Below are positions 13,189-42,456 of a stretch of 64,000 nucleotides of DNA, one piece after another. This stretch comes from Ancylothrix sp. D3o (GTDB lineage Bacteria; Cyanobacteriota; Cyanobacteriia; Cyanobacteriales; Oscillatoriaceae), in contig NZ_JAMXEX010000005.1 of assembly GCF_025370775.1 (NCBI RefSeq), forward strand, positions 124,001 through 188,000. The letters are read 5' to 3'. The translations under genes and the position numbers were made by a program. The notes beneath the pieces are model-generated. The model did not search any database and was not told the origin of the DNA. It worked only from the letters and a program-made list of their open reading frames with translations. Position 1 is the first letter of the stretch, and the number at the start of each line of letters is the position of its first letter.

Positions 13189-14562
13189 ATGACCATCCCA
13201 TTAAAAGCTGGCACAGTCTTACAAAACGGCAAATACACCATAGACGCAATATTAGGCACCGGCATCATCCTCACCTGCGAAGCCACACAAACCGACTTAA
13301 ACTTACCCGTCATCATCAAAACCCTCAATATCTCCTCCCATCGCAGTGACTTTGACCGGCTGCAAACCCAATTTCAATCCCTCAGCCAAAAACTACGACA
13401 ATGCCAACATCCCAACGTTGTCAAAGTTTTAGACAATTTTTCCGAAAACGGCCAAATTTATAGCGTCATGGAATATATACGCGGTCAAACCCTACAAGAA
13501 CTCCTAGACACCGGCCTAGAAATTTCCCCCACACTAGCCCTAGACTATATCCGCCAAATCGGAAACGCACTCACAGAACTGCACCACCAAAGCATCCTCC
13601 ACCGCAACATCAAACCCCAAAACATCAAAAAACGCCAAGGCAGCAACACCGTCATCCTCATAGACTTTGGCATTCTCGATTACCTCCGACAAGCAGAAGG
13701 CCATCAACTCATCCCCAAAACAGACACCAACGATGAAAAAACACTCTTTGGCGGATATGCACCCATCGAACAATACCTTCCCCACACCGAACTGACAACC
13801 AAAAGCGATATCTATTCCCTCAGCGGCACATTGTATTGCCTGCTCACCGGTTCGGCACCCCTAGCAGCCCCCCTCCGCGAACGCATCACCTCCCCAAAAG
13901 CAATCCGAACATTTCCCACAGAAGAACCCTCACCCCCTCCCCTGCGTGAAATCGTCCAATCAGCAAACGCCCTGGGAGTCAAAAGTGCCGGCACCCTGAG
14001 AACCTATAAAAATGCCAAACGACTTATCCAACGTCAAAGCCGGATCGAAGAATGGTTACAGAGATGGAATGAATTCCCCTCTAACCTTGACCCCAGCCTG
14101 GAAGTAGCCCTAAAACGAGGTTTAGAAATAGACGACCTCAACCGGCCCGCCAGCATCGAAGCCTGGTTAGCCCTATTGCCGCAAACTGAACAAGAAAAGC
14201 AAACACCGGCCATCACCATTGAAGTACCCCACTCCAACGAAACAACCAACCCCAACCCACTTACCCCACTTCTTTTTGGATGGCTTAAATCTCCAACCAA
14301 ACGAGCCTTTGCCCTTACCGCTGTCATTGCCGGTTTTTTTGGCATCAGTTTGGGGTTATCCCTCCGCGTTGGTTTAGTCGGCCAAATTAGTGTAGAAATT
14401 TTCGACGTCGAACAATCTTTTCCTCCCCTCGAAGATTGGCCAAGCAGCGAGCCGGTGGAAGTTTATGGAGACTTCGAGACATCCCCAGAGGAAGACTTGC
14501 CAACCCAAACAGAACAAGACTTAGAAACTGTTAGAGGAGCGGACTTAGAGACTAATCAATAA
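13189..14562 (+). CDS. Ser/Thr kinase-fold protein with HRN in place of HRD (probable pseudokinase)
   Basis: Residues about 13-290 have the Hanks kinase fold: the beta-3 lysine K44 (VIIKTL), HPNVVKVLDNF, the hinge VMEYIRGQTLQELL, the catalytic loop ILHRNIKPQN (138-145), IDFG (159-161) and APIEQY. The catalytic aspartate of HRD is Asn140, and the glycine loop reads LGTGIILTC, lacking the third glycine. A membrane helix lies at about 372-395, followed by an acidic extracytoplasmic tail rich in Glu. Loss of the base normally abolishes phosphotransfer, so a scaffold or regulatory role is more likely. UbiB-kinase and PP2C genes follow, but with gaps. Confidence 0.88.
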   Translation: MTIPLKAGTVLQNGKYTIDAILGTGIILTCEATQTDLNLPVIIKTLNISSHRSDFDRLQTQFQSLSQKLRQCQHPNVVKVLDNFSENGQIYSVMEYIRGQTLQELLDTGLEISPTLALDYIRQIGNALTELHHQSILHRNIKPQNIKKRQGSNTVILIDFGILDYLRQAEGHQLIPKTDTNDEKTLFGGYAPIEQYLPHTELTTKSDIYSLSGTLYCLLTGSAPLAAPLRERITSPKAIRTFPTEEPSPPPLREIVQSANALGVKSAGTLRTYKNAKRLIQRQSRIEEWLQRWNEFPSNLDPSLEVALKRGLEIDDLNRPASIEAWLALLPQTEQEKQTPAITIEVPHSNETTNPNPLTPLLFGWLKSPTKRAFALTAVIAGFFGISLGLSLRVGLVGQISVEIFDVEQSFPPLEDWPSSEPVEVYGDFETSPEEDLPTQTEQDLETVRGADLETNQ

Positions 14563-14730: not shown

Positions 14731-15063
14731 ATGAATAATAATTCTTCCGTTCACGCTTTTTTTGTCGGCAGAGCAATCGCTCAGGCTCTTTACCAACAAC
14801 TCGAACAAAACTTAACCACCGCCCTCAGCGAACTCGGCAAATTTGATGCCGAACAGCGCGAACGTTTGCGCGATTTCGCCACCACTGTTATGCAGCGGGC
14901 TGACATGGAAACGCAAAACACCCCCGTTTCCACACCATCCTCTGCCTATTCCCGTACCTCTGCCCCCAACTCAGACCTCCAAGCCACCATTGACGAACTG
15001 CGGGCCGAAATTGCCGAAATGCGCGTTCAACTCCAGCGCTACCGCAGCACCCGCATTAGTTAA
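14731..15063 (+). CDS. small cyanobacterial coiled-coil protein, DUF6825-like
   Basis: A 110-residue protein. The N-terminal part (VHAFFVGRAIAQALYQQLEQ, then LTTALSELGKFDAEQRERLRDF) matches a conserved cyanobacterial family I recall as DUF6825; the name is from memory. A Pro/Ser/Thr linker (67-88) leads to a C-terminal helix with heptad character (LQATIDELRAEIAEMRVQLQRY). No catalytic motif is present. It precedes the UbiB-like kinase by about 80 bases on the same strand and may share its transcript. Confidence 0.8.
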   Translation: MNNNSSVHAFFVGRAIAQALYQQLEQNLTTALSELGKFDAEQRERLRDFATTVMQRADMETQNTPVSTPSSAYSRTSAPNSDLQATIDELRAEIAEMRVQLQRYRSTRIS

Positions 15064-15142
15064 TTGCTCAGCGTCCTTAAACTCTGAACGCTTAACACAA
15101 CTCGTTTAAAAAGTCAAGTCCCACCAACATTTAGGAAATCTC

Positions 15143-16981
15143 GTGTCTGCTCTACCTGATGAACCTGCGACCAGCAAGCGTAATTCCGCCGGCCATAACG
15201 AGCCGGCGGATCACGCCCTAGGCGACGCAAAGCGAACAGCCGTTGTAAAACCAGGCAGTGTAGCGCTCGCCTCCCCCTCCCGAAACGAACAAATCGGCGG
15301 TTTATTGAAATCGAAAGACAAGGCATACCGCTGGAGTCGGGAAAATTACTCGCACAAACGGCGTTTTATCGAGATATGGGCCTTTGTATTAACCTTGATG
15401 GCCAGCGTGTGGTGGGACGGCAAAGCCTGGACTTATCCAGGGGGAATGACGGAAGCCAAAAAACAAGCCCGCCGGCGCAGACAAGCAATTTGGATTCGAG
15501 AAACTTTTTTAGAATTAGGGCCAACTTTTATTAAACTTGGTCAATTGTTCTCAACTCGCGCTGATATTATCCCCGTCGAGTATGTAGAAGAATTAACAAA
15601 ATTGCAAGATAAAGTACCGGCTTTTAACTATGAAATTGCTAGGCGGATTATTGAGCAAGATTTAACAAAGCCGGTTAATGAATTATTTGCCAGTTTTGAT
15701 CCTGTTCCTCTAGCAGCCGCTTCTTTAGGTCAAGTTCACAAAGCTGAACTCCACACCGGCGAAACAGTTGTGGTGAAAGTACAGCGCCCCGGTTTGCGGC
15801 GATTATTTAATATCGATTTAGATATAGCAAAAGGTATCGCTCGTTATTTCCAAAACCATCCCCGATGGGGCAAAGGGCGCGATTGGATGGGCATCTATGA
15901 CGAGTGTTGCAAAATTCTTTATGAGGAAATAGACTACCTCAATGAAGGCCGCAATGCTGATACGTTTCGTCGCAATTTTCGCCCCTATGATTGGGTGAAA
16001 GTACCAAGGGTTTATTGGCGTTATGCTTCGGCGCGGGTTTTAACTTTGGAATATGTACCAGGGATTAAAATTAGCCATTATGAAGCTTTGGAAGCGGCGG
16101 GACTTGACCGCAAACACTTGGCAAAATTAGGTGCAACGGCTTATTTACAACAATTGCTCAATGATGGCTTTTTCCACGCAGACCCCCACCCTGGAAATAT
16201 TGCCGTCAGTGCGGAAGGATCGCTGATTTTTTATGATTTTGGCATGATGGGTAGAGTCAGAAATGATGTCCGCGAAAAGTTGATGCAGTTGTTTTTTGGC
16301 GTTGCTCAAAAAGATGGCGACCGTGTGGTGGCGACTTTGGTTGAGTTGGGCGCCTTGTCAGCAATGGATGATATGGGGCCGGTGCGCCGGTCTGTGCAAT
16401 TCATGCTCGACAATTTTATGGATCAGCCCTTTGAAAATCAATCGGTAGCCTCGATTACCGATGATTTGTACGAAATTGCCCATGACCAACCGTTTCGATT
16501 CCCAGCCACGTTTACGTTCGTGATGAGAGCTTTTTCAACCCTCGAAGGCGTAGGCAAGGGCCTTGATCCGGATTTTAATTTTATGGAGGTTGCAAAGCCT
16601 TTTGCAATGGAAATTATGACAGATGGCAATTCTTTTGATGGCAACGGTTTTCTGGGTGAGTTGGGCCGGCAAGCAGTTCAAGTCAGCAGTACGGCTTTGA
16701 GTCTCCCCCGCCGCATTGAAGATACGATTGAAAAGTTGGAACGGGGCGACATTCGCGTTCGCGTTCGTTCAACGGAAACTGACCGAGCTATCCGCCGGCT
16801 CAGTAATATGCAATTAGGTACAAATTATGCTCTCCTCGCCACTGGTTTCACTTTGTCGGCTACGATTTTATTAGTGAGTAACTATGCTTGGCTAGCAATC
16901 CCTGTGGCCGGTGTGTCAGGACTCCTGCTCCTGGCGTTTTTCCGCCTGTTAATGCGCGTTGACAGATCGGATCGGTTTTGA
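15143..16981 (+). CDS. ABC1/AarF/UbiB-family atypical kinase
   Basis: A 612-residue protein of the ABC1K/ADCK family, which supports quinone and prenyl-lipid metabolism in cyanobacteria and plastids. The family motifs are present in order: FIKLGQLFSTRADIIP (KxGQ), AAASLGQVHKAEL, the lysine in VVKVQRPG, HADPHPGNI near residue 346 and FYDFGMMG. Two hydrophobic helices near the C-terminus (about 553-595) suggest membrane attachment. The first 60 residues are a low-complexity extension. Translation starts at GTG 15143 after TTAGGAAATCTC. Confidence 0.93.
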   Translation: MSALPDEPATSKRNSAGHNEPADHALGDAKRTAVVKPGSVALASPSRNEQIGGLLKSKDKAYRWSRENYSHKRRFIEIWAFVLTLMASVWWDGKAWTYPGGMTEAKKQARRRRQAIWIRETFLELGPTFIKLGQLFSTRADIIPVEYVEELTKLQDKVPAFNYEIARRIIEQDLTKPVNELFASFDPVPLAAASLGQVHKAELHTGETVVVKVQRPGLRRLFNIDLDIAKGIARYFQNHPRWGKGRDWMGIYDECCKILYEEIDYLNEGRNADTFRRNFRPYDWVKVPRVYWRYASARVLTLEYVPGIKISHYEALEAAGLDRKHLAKLGATAYLQQLLNDGFFHADPHPGNIAVSAEGSLIFYDFGMMGRVRNDVREKLMQLFFGVAQKDGDRVVATLVELGALSAMDDMGPVRRSVQFMLDNFMDQPFENQSVASITDDLYEIAHDQPFRFPATFTFVMRAFSTLEGVGKGLDPDFNFMEVAKPFAMEIMTDGNSFDGNGFLGELGRQAVQVSSTALSLPRRIEDTIEKLERGDIRVRVRSTETDRAIRRLSNMQLGTNYALLATGFTLSATILLVSNYAWLAIPVAGVSGLLLLAFFRLLMRVDRSDRF

Positions 16982-17113
16982 GAATCTATAATAATCTCTT
17001 GGTTGCTGCTTTGCTAAGCACGCTCAGGTAAAAAAGGGAAAATTTGCTGAGTTTTAATGCCTTTTTCCCTATTCCCCCACCGCCCTACAGCATTTAAAAA
17101 ACGAGTTTGTTAC

Positions 17114-17875
17114 ATGAAACGTTATTCTGTCGGTCTGACTGACCAGGGACTCATTCGATCTGTTAACCAGGACTCCTACTACATTGATCCCAAGGGACGC
17201 TTTTTTATTGTCGCCGATGGCATGGGAGGTCATGCCGGAGGTCAAGAAGCCAGCCAAATTGCTACCTCTGTGATGCAGGCTTATTTGTCAGACCATTGGG
17301 AGTCGGCTTCTTCTCCTATTGAACTGCTCGAAGGCGCTTTTTTTAAGGCCAATCAGGCTATCCTTGATGATCAGCGCACTCACCCTGAACGTTCGGATAT
17401 GGGAACAACGGCGGTGGTGTTGATTTTTTGGGAAGATCAAGCTGACAACTCTAGTTTAAGTTGGGTGGCTCATGTTGGTGATTCTCGGATCTACCGGCTG
17501 CGCGGTTCTAAGTTAGAGCAGGTGACTGAGGATCATACTTGGATTGCTAGGGCTATGAAAGCTGGCCATCTCTCTGTTGAGCAAGCTCGCTCTCACCCTT
17601 GGCGTCATGTTTTGTCTCAATGTTTGGGCCGGCAGGATCTTCAAGAAGTCGAAATTCGTTCTCTGGAAGTTAACCCCGGCGACCGCTGGTTACTTTGCAC
17701 CGATGGCCTCACAGAGGAGTTATCGGACAGTATGATTTTGTCTCATCTTAAGTCGATTCGCGCTTGTGACCAAGCTGCTAAAAATCTAGTTAATGCGGCT
17801 AAGGATAAGGGCGGACGCGATAATATTACGGTGGTAATTGTGGCCTCGGAAACTCGCCCTACGGGTGAAGATTAA
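17114..17875 (+). CDS. PP2C-family protein serine/threonine phosphatase
   Basis: A 253-residue metal-dependent phosphatase. All PP2C motifs are present: RSVNQDSYY, VADGMGGHAGG, MGTTAVVLIF, AHVGDSRIYRLR, EDHTWI, LLCTDGLTEELSD and GRDNITVVIV, including the aspartates that bind the two Mn/Mg ions. It is stand-alone, without sensor domains, resembling PrpC/Stp partners of Hanks kinases. The start was placed at ATG 17114 (MKRYSVGLTD), where family similarity begins; the frame is open for 19 residues more. The nearest kinase-fold gene, at 13189, appears catalytically dead. Confidence 0.93.
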   Translation: MKRYSVGLTDQGLIRSVNQDSYYIDPKGRFFIVADGMGGHAGGQEASQIATSVMQAYLSDHWESASSPIELLEGAFFKANQAILDDQRTHPERSDMGTTAVVLIFWEDQADNSSLSWVAHVGDSRIYRLRGSKLEQVTEDHTWIARAMKAGHLSVEQARSHPWRHVLSQCLGRQDLQEVEIRSLEVNPGDRWLLCTDGLTEELSDSMILSHLKSIRACDQAAKNLVNAAKDKGGRDNITVVIVASETRPTGED

Positions 17876-38651: not shown

Positions 38652-39758
38652 ATGGGTAAGGCTGTTCGTGCAAAAGAGCCCATGAATATTAATTTTGAAC
38701 CTTACTATACGACGGATTTCGGTGCGGCTTATTTACGAGATAGCCTGGAATTATTAACTAAAGTTCCTGATGAAAGTGTTGATTTAATTTGTACTTCTCC
38801 GCCGTTTGCATTGCTACGAAAAAAAGAGTATGGAAATGTTGATGCGGATGAATATTTAGAATGGTTTACACCTTTTGCAAAGCAGTTTTACCGAATTCTT
38901 AAACCGCAGGGTTCCCTAGTAATTGATATTGGCGGAAGCTGGATTAAAGGCTATCCGGTGCGTTCTCTTTACCATTTTGAGTTGGTTGTTAATTTATGCA
39001 AGCCACAACATAAAGGGGGGTTGGGTTTTTATTTGGCGCAGGAGCTATATTGGTATAATCCTGCGAAATTACCGACACCCGCAGAATGGGTGACTGTGCG
39101 GCGGGAACGGGTTAAGGATGCTGTTAATACAGTATGGTGGCTGTCTAAAGATCCCCACCCTAAAGCCAATAATAGACGGGTTTTAAAGCCTTATAGTGAG
39201 GCAATGAATCAGCTTTTAAAGAATGGTTATTCGGCAAAGCTTCGTCCTTCGGGCCACAATATTTCTACGAAGTTTCAAAAGGATAGCGGAGGGGCTATTC
39301 CTCCTAATTTGATAGAGGGTCGGTTGGAGGAGGATAGAATAACAGAAATGGGTGCGCCGGTTTTGTTTTTTTCTGATGATGTGGAGATGAGTAGTTTTGT
39401 TCAACCTGTGAATGTTATTTCTGCTTCTAATACTTCTTCTAATGATTCCTATCAAAAAAGATGTAAACAAATGGGTATAAAACCTCATCCGGCCAGGTTT
39501 CCGGCGGCGTTACCAGAGTTTATTATTAATCTTTGTACGGAACCTGGGGATTTAGTGTTAGATCCCTTTGCGGGTTCTAATACGACTGGTTGGATGGCTG
39601 AGAAGTTAGAAAGAAAATGGCTGGCTTTTGAGATTAATAAAGATTACTTGGAGGGGTCTAAGTTTAGATTTGAAAAACCAGGGTCGGCTGCTGTTGAGTC
39701 GGTGCGGGAATTTCAGCAAGGTAATTTGTTTGATTTGCTGCACCCCGGTGAAAATTAA
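38652..39758 (+). CDS. site-specific DNA methyltransferase, beta-class (amino-methylating)
   Basis: A 368-residue DNA methyltransferase with the catalytic motif CTSPPF (about 47-52) before the SAM-binding motif DPFAGSNTTGWMAEKL (about 304-319), the beta order. SPPF is usual for N4-cytosine enzymes, though N6-adenine cannot be excluded. The region between (about 90-290) holds the target recognition part. The nuclease-like gene follows after 20 bases, so they form an operon. GCCGGY-type hexamers are scarce in this gene (one seen), unlike most of the window, hinting at later acquisition. ATG 38682 is an alternative start. Confidence 0.9.
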   Translation: MGKAVRAKEPMNINFEPYYTTDFGAAYLRDSLELLTKVPDESVDLICTSPPFALLRKKEYGNVDADEYLEWFTPFAKQFYRILKPQGSLVIDIGGSWIKGYPVRSLYHFELVVNLCKPQHKGGLGFYLAQELYWYNPAKLPTPAEWVTVRRERVKDAVNTVWWLSKDPHPKANNRRVLKPYSEAMNQLLKNGYSAKLRPSGHNISTKFQKDSGGAIPPNLIEGRLEEDRITEMGAPVLFFSDDVEMSSFVQPVNVISASNTSSNDSYQKRCKQMGIKPHPARFPAALPEFIINLCTEPGDLVLDPFAGSNTTGWMAEKLERKWLAFEINKDYLEGSKFRFEKPGSAAVESVREFQQGNLFDLLHPGEN

Positions 39759-39778
39759 CTGACCAATACAGGAAAAAT

Positions 39779-41275
39779 ATGGAAAATTCAAAACCCAAAA
39801 AGTTTACCTACGGCCATCAATTTGAGCCAACTAAGTTTGATTTGGGAGAAATTATAGAAATTTGCTTGGAGTGCGAACCAAAGCGAAATAGAGTAGAAGA
39901 AGTCATTTCTATGAGATACTTTTCTGAGCATTCGCAGCAAGGAAATAGTCAAGCAAAGGCTGCTTCTAATATCCAAAAGCTGGCAATGAATTGTTTTTTA
40001 TCGTTGCGAGCCTACAAAATTGTCGAGGATACTGAGGTTAACCGGCAATATAAAGTCACTGAGCTTGCTAGAGAGATTTTAGCAGCTAAAGATAAGCAAG
40101 ATTTAGTGTACAGGATATTTGCGCGTCATATCTTAACCAATTTAACAGGATTAAGCCTGCTCAAAGCAATAGAGGCTATCAATGCTAGAGGCGAAACGCC
40201 GAATTTAGAGATCATTGGGGAAGAATTAAATGCGATGGGTTTTTCTATCTCCCCAAATGCGGTTTATGTCAGTACGATGCGAAGTTGGCTTTCTTTAGCG
40301 AAAGTTTTTGAAAGAGAGTTTGAAGTTAACTGGGATGTTGTTAATGATATTCTCGGCATAGATAAAGATTATATAGATGAAATTTACAGCCTAACACCGG
40401 CTCAAAAACATTTTTTATTAAGCATGATCAATCTTTCGATCATAGAGTTTACGCCTTGGAATCAAATTGCTAAACATACGACCAGCGTCTATAAGGTGAG
40501 GTTAACTTCTAAGCTTTTTGTAAAGCAGATGATTGAGCCGCTTGTAAATTTAGGATTGATTGAAACGCAAAAATCAACGGAGGGGAGAGGAGCAAAGCCT
40601 AATTTGGTTAAGCTGAGTGAAAAAGCGCAAGTAGAGTTAGTTCAACCTTTACTGAAAACGATTGCTGATTTAGCACAAATTTCTGAGACAGAACTGAATC
40701 GCAGTTTTGATGATGTTCTTGGAGATATTGACAGTAAAGATAAGCATATTAAAGGCAAAGCTTTAGAACTTTTGGCAATTTGGATGATTCGTTTAACGAC
40801 TTTAAGATTTACAAAATGGAGAAAACGCGATGCGGAAACAGGTCAAGGGGAGGTTGATGTTTTAGCTGCTTCGGATAGGTTTGTTTACAGTCGGTGGCAA
40901 ATTCAGTGTAAAAATACTAAGAAAGTAGATGTGGATGCTTTGGCGAAAGAAATAGGCATGACTTTTGTTACCGGCGCCGATGTGGTGATGGTAGTAACAA
41001 CGGGAGAATTTACGAGAGATGCTTACCAATATGCCTATCGTATGATGGAAGTGTCTCGATATTATATGATTTTACTGCAAAAGGATGACCTTGAGCAAAT
41101 TAGGCAAGATAAAACAAGTATTATTAATATTTTGGATAAGAAGGCGAGAAGAGTATTTGCCAAGAAAGAACTATTGATGATTGATGAGGAGGTTGATGAG
41201 ATTGAAGAAGAAGAGGATACTATTTCTGATTTGGCGCTTGATAGAGAGGATTTTGGGGAGATGTCTGAGAATTAA
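39779..41275 (+). CDS. Mrr-like restriction endonuclease with N-terminal helical domains
   Basis: A 498-residue protein. Residues about 345-440 fit the Mrr-type PD-(D/E)xK nuclease core: KGKALELLAIWM, then D360 in GEVDVLAAS and Q376-x-K378 in WQIQCKNTKKV, where Gln replaces the usual Glu as in Mrr enzymes. The first 300 residues are helical, with winged-helix-like segments (YKVTELAREIL and VNLGLIETQKSTEGRG) that may read DNA. The C-terminus is an acidic tail. The gene is 20 bases after a DNA methyltransferase, so it is probably the nuclease of a restriction-modification system. Specificity is unknown. Confidence 0.78.
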   Translation: MENSKPKKFTYGHQFEPTKFDLGEIIEICLECEPKRNRVEEVISMRYFSEHSQQGNSQAKAASNIQKLAMNCFLSLRAYKIVEDTEVNRQYKVTELAREILAAKDKQDLVYRIFARHILTNLTGLSLLKAIEAINARGETPNLEIIGEELNAMGFSISPNAVYVSTMRSWLSLAKVFEREFEVNWDVVNDILGIDKDYIDEIYSLTPAQKHFLLSMINLSIIEFTPWNQIAKHTTSVYKVRLTSKLFVKQMIEPLVNLGLIETQKSTEGRGAKPNLVKLSEKAQVELVQPLLKTIADLAQISETELNRSFDDVLGDIDSKDKHIKGKALELLAIWMIRLTTLRFTKWRKRDAETGQGEVDVLAASDRFVYSRWQIQCKNTKKVDVDALAKEIGMTFVTGADVVMVVTTGEFTRDAYQYAYRMMEVSRYYMILLQKDDLEQIRQDKTSIINILDKKARRVFAKKELLMIDEEVDEIEEEEDTISDLALDREDFGEMSEN

Positions 41276-41355
41276 GAAACCGGGATTGCTGAATGACTGA
41301 TGTAGCTTTTCTCAATGGAGTGAGATACTCAGTAAAATTATCATATTATTTTTTT

Positions 41356-41413
41356 AACCGCAGATGTTAGGCGTAGCCGTCACCGAAGTGCGTACGCAGA
41401 TAAACGCAGATGG
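41356..41413. repeat. 10-mer repeat interrupted by an insert
   Basis: AACCGCAGATG and TACGCAGATAAACGCAGATG are separated by about 30 unrelated bases (GTTAGGCGTAGCC and on). The tract lies between the nuclease and the cytosine methyltransferase genes. Confidence 0.7.
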
Positions 41414-41427
41414 GTTATCGGTTTTAC

Positions 41428-41481
41428 GGGAGGTTTTATGATATATTTTAAAAATGTTTTTTATGGAATTTGGGCGTTAAG
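41428..41481 (+). promoter_or_regulatory. translation-initiation region of the C5 methyltransferase with overlapping mini-ORFs
   Basis: A strong GGGAGG (41428-41433) precedes ATG 41438, which opens a frame different from the methyltransferase. A second short frame starts at ATG 41454 and stops at TAA 41478-41480, one base before the methyltransferase ATG. Reinitiation or coupling is possible. Confidence 0.35.
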
Positions 41482-42456
41482 ATGCGGTTTATCGATCTGT
41501 TCGCCGGCATTGGTGGTTTTAGACTGGCGTTTGAAGAGGCGGGCTTTCAATGTGTTTTTTCTTGTGAAATTAACAAACATTGTCGAGAAGTTTATAGCAA
41601 TAATTTTAATGAAATTCCTTTTGGCGATATTCAAGAGTTAAAACCGGAAGAAATAGCTGATTTTGATGTGTTGGTTGCCGGTTTTCCTTGTCAGCCTTTT
41701 AGTATTTGTGGCAAAAAGCGTGGTTTTGAAGACACGCGAGGTACTCTATTTTTTGAAATTTGTCGAATTATTGAAGTTAAACAGCCTAAAGTTATTGTTT
41801 TAGAAAATGTCAAACATTTGATTCATCACGATGGCGGCAATACTTTAAAAGTTATTTTAGAGAGTCTTAGAGATTTAGGCTACAACGTCAATTATAAAAT
41901 TTTGAATGCTAAAAATTTTGGCCTTCCTCAACACCGGGAAAGAATTTTTATTATTGGGACGAAAGGCAAAGAATTTAGCTTTGATAACTTGAAACCTAAA
42001 GTTACACCCAAATTAAGAGATTTTATTGATAAAAGTGATGATTTTGAGTTTTTAGATAAATCAGAATACACTTTAATTGATAGTCCGCGCCGGCAAGATT
42101 CGGGTTTATTATTTGTGGGTTATAGAAATAAAGGAATTTGGAAAACCGGCATTAGACCAAATACAGAACATTTGTCAAGAGTTCACCGGCAACCTAACCG
42201 TATTTACTCTATTGATGGCACCCATCCCACTCTCCCCTCACAAGAAACATCTGGGAGATTTTTTATCTACATTCCTGAACAAGATCAGGTGCGAAAATTA
42301 AGTTTGAAAGAATGTTACCGGATTATGGGTTTTCCTGAAACCTTTAAAGTTCATTCAAATGTTAGCGAAAGTTATAAGCAAATTGGGAATTCTATTTGTG
42401 TGCCGGTGGCTAAGGCTATTGCTAAAGAAATCACAATAAATTTTGCGAAAACATAG
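41482..42456 (+). CDS. DNA (cytosine-5)-methyltransferase
   Basis: A 325-residue C5 methyltransferase with motifs in normal order: MRFIDLFAGIGGFRLA (I), catalytic C70 in GFPCQPFS (IV), LENVKHL (VI), NFGLPQHRERIFIIG (VIII), a target recognition region (about 200-265) and QIGNSICVPVAKAIAKEI (X). It modifies a short DNA sequence that cannot be read from the protein. It may belong to the upstream modification genes or be an orphan. ATG 41482 is used because motif I starts at once; TTG 41470 is also in frame. Confidence 0.95.
   Translation: MRFIDLFAGIGGFRLAFEEAGFQCVFSCEINKHCREVYSNNFNEIPFGDIQELKPEEIADFDVLVAGFPCQPFSICGKKRGFEDTRGTLFFEICRIIEVKQPKVIVLENVKHLIHHDGGNTLKVILESLRDLGYNVNYKILNAKNFGLPQHRERIFIIGTKGKEFSFDNLKPKVTPKLRDFIDKSDDFEFLDKSEYTLIDSPRRQDSGLLFVGYRNKGIWKTGIRPNTEHLSRVHRQPNRIYSIDGTHPTLPSQETSGRFFIYIPEQDQVRKLSLKECYRIMGFPETFKVHSNVSESYKQIGNSICVPVAKAIAKEITINFAKT

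Follow-up and report, generated by a model that had tools for sequence, protein, structure and literature searches.

A probable membrane pseudokinase of Ancylothrix sp. D3o and the cyanobacterial family that its transmembrane tail appears to mark

The gene at 13189–14562 of the window (the whole stretch of DNA analysed: 64,000 nt of Ancylothrix sp. D3o, positions 124,001–188,000 of the forward strand of NZ_JAMXEX010000005.1) is best read as encoding a retained membrane pseudokinase. Judged from the sequences compared, its transmembrane (TM) helix and the motif beyond it form a module that marks one cyanobacterial family. The explanation which, taken as a whole, we consider likely is that of a family of membrane pseudokinases in which the conserved TM-tail module serves for docking, while the cytoplasmic domain would act as a binding or nucleotide-sensing surface; we are less confident of the docking step than of the whole. 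The features on which the description is based are the following.

13189..14562, + strand: candidate membrane pseudokinase gene, 457 aa, ATG start (from the ORF and Pfam)
13255..13272, + strand: incomplete glycine loop GTGIIL, residues 23–28, third Gly lost
13318..13320, + strand: β3 Lys44, retained
13381..13383, + strand: Leu65 at the αC glutamate position (from the profile alignment)
13600..13608, + strand: HRN, residues 138–140, the catalytic Asp replaced by Asn140
13663..13671, + strand: DFG, residues 159–161, retained
14293..14367, + strand: predicted TM helix, residues 369–393, with the conserved stripe T377-A381-G385-G389-R393
14410..14442, + strand: conserved outer motif EQSFPPLEDWP, residues 408–418
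14731..15063, + strand: DUF6825 gene, conserved downstream neighbour, putatively of the PG18 family
15143..16981, + strand: ABC1 atypical kinase gene, counterpart of SpkI (sll1770) by its position in the cluster
17057..17875, + strand: PP2C phosphatase gene, closest to 2j82 in the PDB; its start may be 17114

The Pfam Pkinase domain (PF00069) covers residues 19–231 of the protein (E = 3e-27; 96 bits against a gathering cut-off of 31.7) and was the sole Pfam domain found when the protein was scanned. The first-pass annotation had described a kinase with HRN, an incomplete glycine loop, a remaining β3 lysine and DFG aspartate, and a membrane helix, and all of this was recovered: the Asn lies exactly at residue 140 of the + strand ORF, the third Gly of the loop is gone, Lys44 and DFG are both present, and a TM helix is predicted. 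Leu65, the conserved motif at 408–418 and an extra stretch in the C-lobe go beyond that description. The catalytic-loop Asn145 is also retained. Two features expected of an active kinase are missing, namely the HRD Asp (Asn140) and the pair made by the αC Glu and the β3 Lys (Lys44 is present, Leu65 replaces the Glu). Given Lys44, Asn145 and DFG, the protein could still bind ATP-Mg; phosphotransfer seems unlikely, because of Asn140 and the missing αC Glu. The AlphaFold model has a bilobal kinase fold with a mean pLDDT of 77.5 (above 90 in most 10-residue blocks of about residues 1–160, 46–80 in parts of the C-lobe), and its top structural matches are bacterial kinases, PpkA (5hnv) being the first (Z 26.4, rmsd 3.3, 265 residues aligned). 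By eye, the C-lobe contains some 55 extra residues (about 243–300) that are missing in Microcoleus relatives; part of this stretch is modelled as a long helix (267–294). The long acidic outer tail reported earlier stands as to its composition, with 17 Asp/Glu and one Lys/Arg among the last 64 residues, while its placement outside the cell or in the lumen would follow from the charges. A Hanks-type domain, a linker, one TM helix and a C-terminal outer part are also found in PknB/PASTA-type kinases, and the model matches the structures of PknB and PpkA; PASTA kinases nevertheless differ, since the window protein scored 112.8 bits with NF033483 against an equivalog cut-off of 450 bits, its short outer tail leaves no room for PASTA repeats, and the catalytic Asp is absent.

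In the window's family, the six further members with a kinase that were compared have Asp at position 140 (HGD or HLD), so Asn140 looks like a change within the window's own lineage. This is what a single recent HRD-to-HRN mutation in an otherwise normal kinase would leave behind. As a complete explanation, however, such a mutation is already contradicted, and we regard it as very improbable: besides HGD or HLD the same six proteins carry DFS and a Leu or Arg at the αC position, the window protein also lacks the αC Glu and part of the glycine loop, and Asn occupies the HRD Asp position in 15 of 108 full-length members of the wider tail family. The comparison of orthologues at residue 140, suggested at the first pass as a check, therefore went both ways. 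Within its family HRN proved peculiar to the window protein instead of being shared, yet its relatives bear other lesions, so the objection foreseen there (orthologues with HRD, revealing one recent mutation) holds only by half.

What these relatives have in common is the C-terminal end. Among the best relatives from 60 genomes, a TM helix followed by EQSFPPxxDWP accompanied quite different catalytic lesions (HGD/DFS, HLD/DFS, HRD/DVG, loss of DFG and others). An alignment of 30 full-length members showed G385, G389, R393, Q409, F411 and P412 to be invariant, and T377, A381, S410, W417 and P418 nearly so; the conserved stripe of the helix reads TxxxAxxxGxxxGxxxR, with the outer peptide just beyond it. 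The tail motif was first recognised by eye in relatives, and a tail-only alignment was then used as a search profile (window protein: E = 9e-21, its own tail being a row of that profile). Within the order, 106 of the 388 genomes gave one match apiece; within the class, a broader profile matched 207 of 388 genomes, with a single match in all but a few. A named scan rendered 36 loci, including those of Microcoleus, Moorena, Symploca, Oscillatoria and Crocosphaera watsonii WH 8501, and also tail loci in endosymbionts of Epithemia and Rhopalodia. An apparent second copy of the tail in the window's own genome (C1:480213) was rejected as a different TM protein with CxxCH motifs. The conserved part, the TM helix plus the outer motif, was also found without any kinase, which had not been part of the earlier view of this protein.

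Members were read among 226 loci, 211 of them with a tail, which are a subset of the order and class profile matches. Having been found through the tail, they are mostly best matches and not a random sample; they yielded 162 distinct tail proteins, of which 108 had a full-length kinase domain, 11 only its N-lobe and 40 no kinase, three being set aside. Five core residues were scored (β3 Lys, αC Glu, HRD Asp, catalytic-loop Asn and DFG Asp); the loop Lys was dropped as a criterion because it varies in ordinary kinases of the same genomes, where it is often Ser, Thr or Asn. All five residues were present in 14 of the 108 full-length members. The αC Glu was lost or beyond the reach of the profile in 79, the DFG Asp in 71, the HRD Asp in 33 (replaced by Asn in 15), the catalytic-loop Asn in 32 and the β3 Lys in 31; as these calls were made by profile alignment, some may be wrong where degeneration is strongest. 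In eighteen of the 108 rows the domain is full-length, but degeneration makes the profile match end near position 125–185, and these rows were scored as having lost whatever the profile does not reach; without them, the losses numbered 61, 53, 21, 14 and 14, respectively, and 14 of 90 members retained all five residues. After thinning to below 72% identity, seven of 58 tail kinases did so. As controls, the non-tail kinases of three genomes that also supplied tail members (G000, G021 and G053) were scored: 94 of 125 retained all five residues, a lower bound since the control loci are partly short, and the HRD Asp and the DFG Asp were each present in 117 of 125. A fully canonical site is seen in 11 of 108 members (10 of 107 if the doubtful L205 is left out), so the tail family probably includes some active kinases. 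Degeneration thus belongs to the tail family and is not a general trait of the kinases of these genomes, although it also occurs outside the family, since five other kinases in the window's genome have no HRD Asp. Pkinase proteins without this residue were L355, L357, L359, L360 and L361 in that genome (with 56 matches to Pkinase at E ≤ 1e-10), L287 and L364 in G021, and L374 in G053.

Many genomes encode the tail as a separate protein, the shortest of about 65–85 residues, for example in Crocosphaera and in diatom endosymbionts (chromosomes of 2.5–3.1 Mb). When 43 apparent kinase-less cases were checked for upstream remnants, L139 and L222 turned out to be frameshifts and L212 was cut by the end of its contig. 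With these three set aside, 40 were left, and no adjoining kinase was seen in their upstream DNA (only 177 bases in the case of L187). They include one from the window's own family (G003) and three from diatom endosymbionts; in G003 and in family f45 the outer or N-terminal part is longer, still without a kinase. Eleven members, all from family f56, stop at the hinge and contain only the kinase N-lobe, the β3 Lys having become Gln or His (L174, L131, L170, L185, L184, L167, L182, L172, L200, L203 and L193). The AlphaFold model of one of them, confident at residues 1–110, predicts that the lone N-lobe is folded, and it matches the N-lobes of kinases (PpkA: Z 13.6, rmsd 2.1, 108 residues aligned). 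A Pfam scan of two standalone and three N-lobe-only proteins revealed no family above the cut-off.

The degenerate kinase domains showed pairwise dN/dS values of 0.09–0.40 (15 pairs). The values for canonical kinase domains were 0.045 and 0.063 (two pairs, the second at dS 1.7), and those for standalone tail proteins 0.07–0.18 (8 pairs); linkers ranged from 0.1 to 2.7, mostly 0.3–1. For the tail of fused forms the range was 0 to 0.68, with one pair at 1.03; these figures, from 62 codons, are noisy, and in close pairs they are not clearly below those of the dead kinase domain, a point that slightly lowers our confidence in the explanation as a whole. All these values describe relatives, the window's own lineage having no close relative in the sample. 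The dead kinase domains of the relatives are under purifying selection. At the level of the family, the initial description as a pseudokinase has therefore held, given this selection and the few full-length members (14 of 108) that keep all five core residues. A pure pseudogene was rejected, since a single open frame holds both kinase and tail in all but two of the members that have a kinase, and the measured pairs gave dN/dS values below 1. Mere decay, in which a kinase losing its role would be on its way to deletion and have no present function, fits the graded series from intact to absent and the higher dN/dS of the 15 dead pairs compared with the canonical ones. We nevertheless hold it to be unlikely, if worth keeping in mind: dN/dS was well below 1 in 15 of 15 dead pairs, only in L139 and L222 among the members with a kinase is the domain split from the tail by a frameshift, the window model predicts that the fold is retained, and degenerate forms fill whole families in the sample (23 of 24 members in f48, 16 of 16 in f15).

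The kinase tree was built from 102 paralogues and 58 tail kinases, the latter being what remained of the 90 that the profile covers well after thinning at 72% identity. Fifty-seven of the 58 clustered together with a support of 81; the fork joining the tail kinases with two paralogues (L279 and L317) had a support of only 62. The remaining one, L205, lies apart in this tree; its gene is away from the PG18 locus, and its tail match could be accidental. In the midpoint-rooted drawing the canonical L002 and L202 branch early, while the canonical L136 is found among degenerate kinases. Several independent fusions to the tail were rejected, considering that 57 of 58 tail kinases group together, with a support of 62 at the fork with the two paralogues. 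Mapped on a tree of the ABC1 proteins encoded next to the tail genes (95 rows), the kinase-less label requires at least six changes, four of them forced by starred branches, and the canonical versus degenerate label three changes, one forced; an earlier tree of 98 rows gave six changes for the kinase-less label, three forced. Both locus trees were built quickly and contain rows that are only half filled (the long rows L204, L202 and L076 were left out of the 95-row tree), and such counts do not separate gain from loss; the N-lobe-only genes are in neither, because no ABC1 gene adjoins them. Taken together with the partial forms, the trees favour one fusion of an active kinase to the tail, followed by repeated inactivation and loss. 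The kinase has been repeatedly disabled, halved or lost while the tail stayed recognisable, which suggests an essential role for the tail and not for kinase activity. We lean, by a modest degree, towards a broader form of this idea: the functional unit would be an unnamed cyanobacterial membrane microprotein to which an active kinase was joined once. In several lineages the kinase would then have been silenced, cut or removed, each time independently, and the microprotein would have kept its function throughout, including in the nitrogen-fixing endosymbionts of diatoms.

As in many other members of the family, the gene in the window lies before DUF6825, ABC1 and PP2C genes (14731–17875). Gene order and linked records point to the DUF6825 gene as a member of the PG18 family. 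The PP2C protein matches 2j82, which we take to be tPphA, with 286 bits, the next structure from another family being 2cm1 (PstP; 137 bits). The same neighbours form the PG18-SpkI-PphA cluster of Synechocystis (sll1769, sll1770 and pphA, the last presumably sll1771), a correspondence drawn from sequence for PP2C and from position and domain for PG18 and SpkI. For 152 members the available sequence reached far enough to look for PG18, and in 105 of these it was the next gene in the same orientation. Broken down by class, these are 76 of the 90 degenerate members, 20 of the 38 kinase-less and 9 of the 10 canonical ones, with none of the 11 N-lobe-only and none of the three set-aside members. The 47 members without PG18 downstream thus include the three set-aside rows and all 11 N-lobe-only genes. 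Where PG18 was present and 2.4 kb of sequence was available, ABC1 came next in 79 of 80. With 7 kb of sequence, all three genes followed in 17 of 18 degenerate loci and in none of nine kinase-less ones, these nine all sitting at other sites; Crocosphaera-type standalone genes are likewise at other sites, away from the PG18 locus. Eight kinase-less loci do have all three neighbours (L062, L073, L074, L075, L080, L180, L187 and L197). Twenty genomes were chosen for having no tail match; PG18 was present in 19, with a kinase ahead of it, in the DNA examined, in only three of these 19 and in none of the f33 genomes. The DUF6825(PG18)-ABC1-PP2C(PphA) order was seen to be conserved across numerous families of cyanobacteria, whether a kinase gene precedes it or not. 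An upstream DLH gene was rejected as a conserved neighbour, having no match in loci L031–L116. By eye, the standalone tail gene of L105 (7929–8141) adjoins psaL-like and Ycf51-like genes, and that of L116 (7938–8165; a diatom endosymbiont) lies between mnmG-like and UbiD-like genes.

A conserved cluster containing ABC1 and a PphA-like PP2C raises the question of whether the kinase is the antagonistic partner of PphA, possibly with PII or further targets of PphA as its substrates; the degenerate forms would then regulate a different kinase. The literature, in the parts of these papers available, leaves room for this: sll1770 is SpkI, encoded upstream of the PII phosphatase gene pphA, and the kinase acting on PII is given as unidentified (PMC11863333), SpkB having been proposed as a candidate (PMC10651672). 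According to the same account, however, SpkI is dispensable for the phosphorylation of PII (PMC11863333). Kinase-less forms occur in the same cluster with PP2C (L062, L073, L074, L075 and others), and in G014, a 3.7-Mb genome with the PG18-SpkI-PphA order, the gene ahead is a small TM-tail protein and there is no kinase there. Since genomes with the kinase-less form keep PP2C next to it, a general role as PII kinase is unlikely for the tail-family kinase, and the antagonist reading as such is improbable. No description of the gene ahead of PG18 in Synechocystis was found in the literature on sll1768, sll1769 or DUF6825. The product of sll1769/alr4514 is PG18, a plastoglobular protein, according to the accessible part of PMC12923008. 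Reports have linked the genes of this cluster to nitrogen signalling through PII, to lipid globules and to photosynthetic acclimation, and the membrane module beside them is uncharacterised.

Returning to the pseudokinase explanation, the proposed course of events is that one active kinase was fused to the TM-tail module and then inactivated or lost repeatedly, lineage by lineage. The window protein would have an N-in, C-out topology, docking to a conserved partner in the membrane would take place through the conserved face of the TM helix and the outer motif, and the kinase domain on the cytoplasmic side would offer a binding or nucleotide-sensing surface instead of working as an enzyme. Conservation of the neighbourhood is no proof of interaction, which counts against the docking step. 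The earlier proposal that the protein has been retained as a sensor or scaffold appears plausible from its sequence, the scaffold role being one that we infer. The protein might instead be an atypical yet active kinase or nucleotidyl transferase, in which the lost residues are compensated as in WNK or SelO-type kinases; this would also account for the presence of Lys44, Asn145 and DFG in the window protein, for the purifying selection on the dead domains of its relatives and for the existence of canonical members. The lesions vary by lineage, however, with no single replaced mechanism, and 11 members lack the whole C-lobe and 40 the entire domain; we judge this alternative to be rather unlikely.

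Kinase-like proteins without the catalytic Asp were already known in general, because a 2005 survey, seen here in part, counted such sequences in prokaryotes (PMC1262709). O'Boyle et al. (2025; PMC12599244) name seven bacterial pseudokinase families (ActPs1-3, GLW, CP1, DYD and DLHK). Like the tail family, these are pseudokinases conserved in bacteria, and several of them have a TM helix at the C-terminus, according to the portion of the paper available. The window protein was set apart from three of the seven by their descriptions there. CP1 includes cyanobacteria and mixes intact with degraded members, as the tail family does, but it has no TM helix and is linked to COG3899, whereas the window protein has a TM helix at 369–393. 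ActPs2 mostly has a β3 Arg and a DFG deletion, unlike the window protein with its Lys44 and DFG, and GLW takes the place of HRD in the family of that name, where HRN is found here. MviN/Rv3910 (ActPs3; PDB 3uqc) is likewise a membrane-linked bacterial pseudokinase; its site is filled by aromatic residues and binds no ATP according to the same text (PMC12599244), in contrast to the Lys and DFG of the window protein, and the membrane parts of the two proteins differ. Neither a QSFPPxxDWP tail nor N-lobe-only forms nor kinase-less orthologues are described for the seven families in that portion of the paper (PMC12599244). No account of the tail family was found in the literature on bacterial or cyanobacterial pseudokinases or Hanks-type kinases, covered mostly through papers available without subscription, and a literature search with the letters of the outer motif gave no description of a tail protein. 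The evolution of pseudokinases is usually viewed as a single before-and-after pair. Here one orthologous gene shows the stages together (intact, degenerate, reduced to the N-lobe, and gone), and with these side by side it becomes testable which property of a kinase domain survives the loss of catalysis.

Elsewhere in the window, adjoining genes resembling those for a DNA methyltransferase, a restriction-type protein and a cytosine methyltransferase were noticed by eye at 38652–42456, and they may constitute a restriction-modification system.
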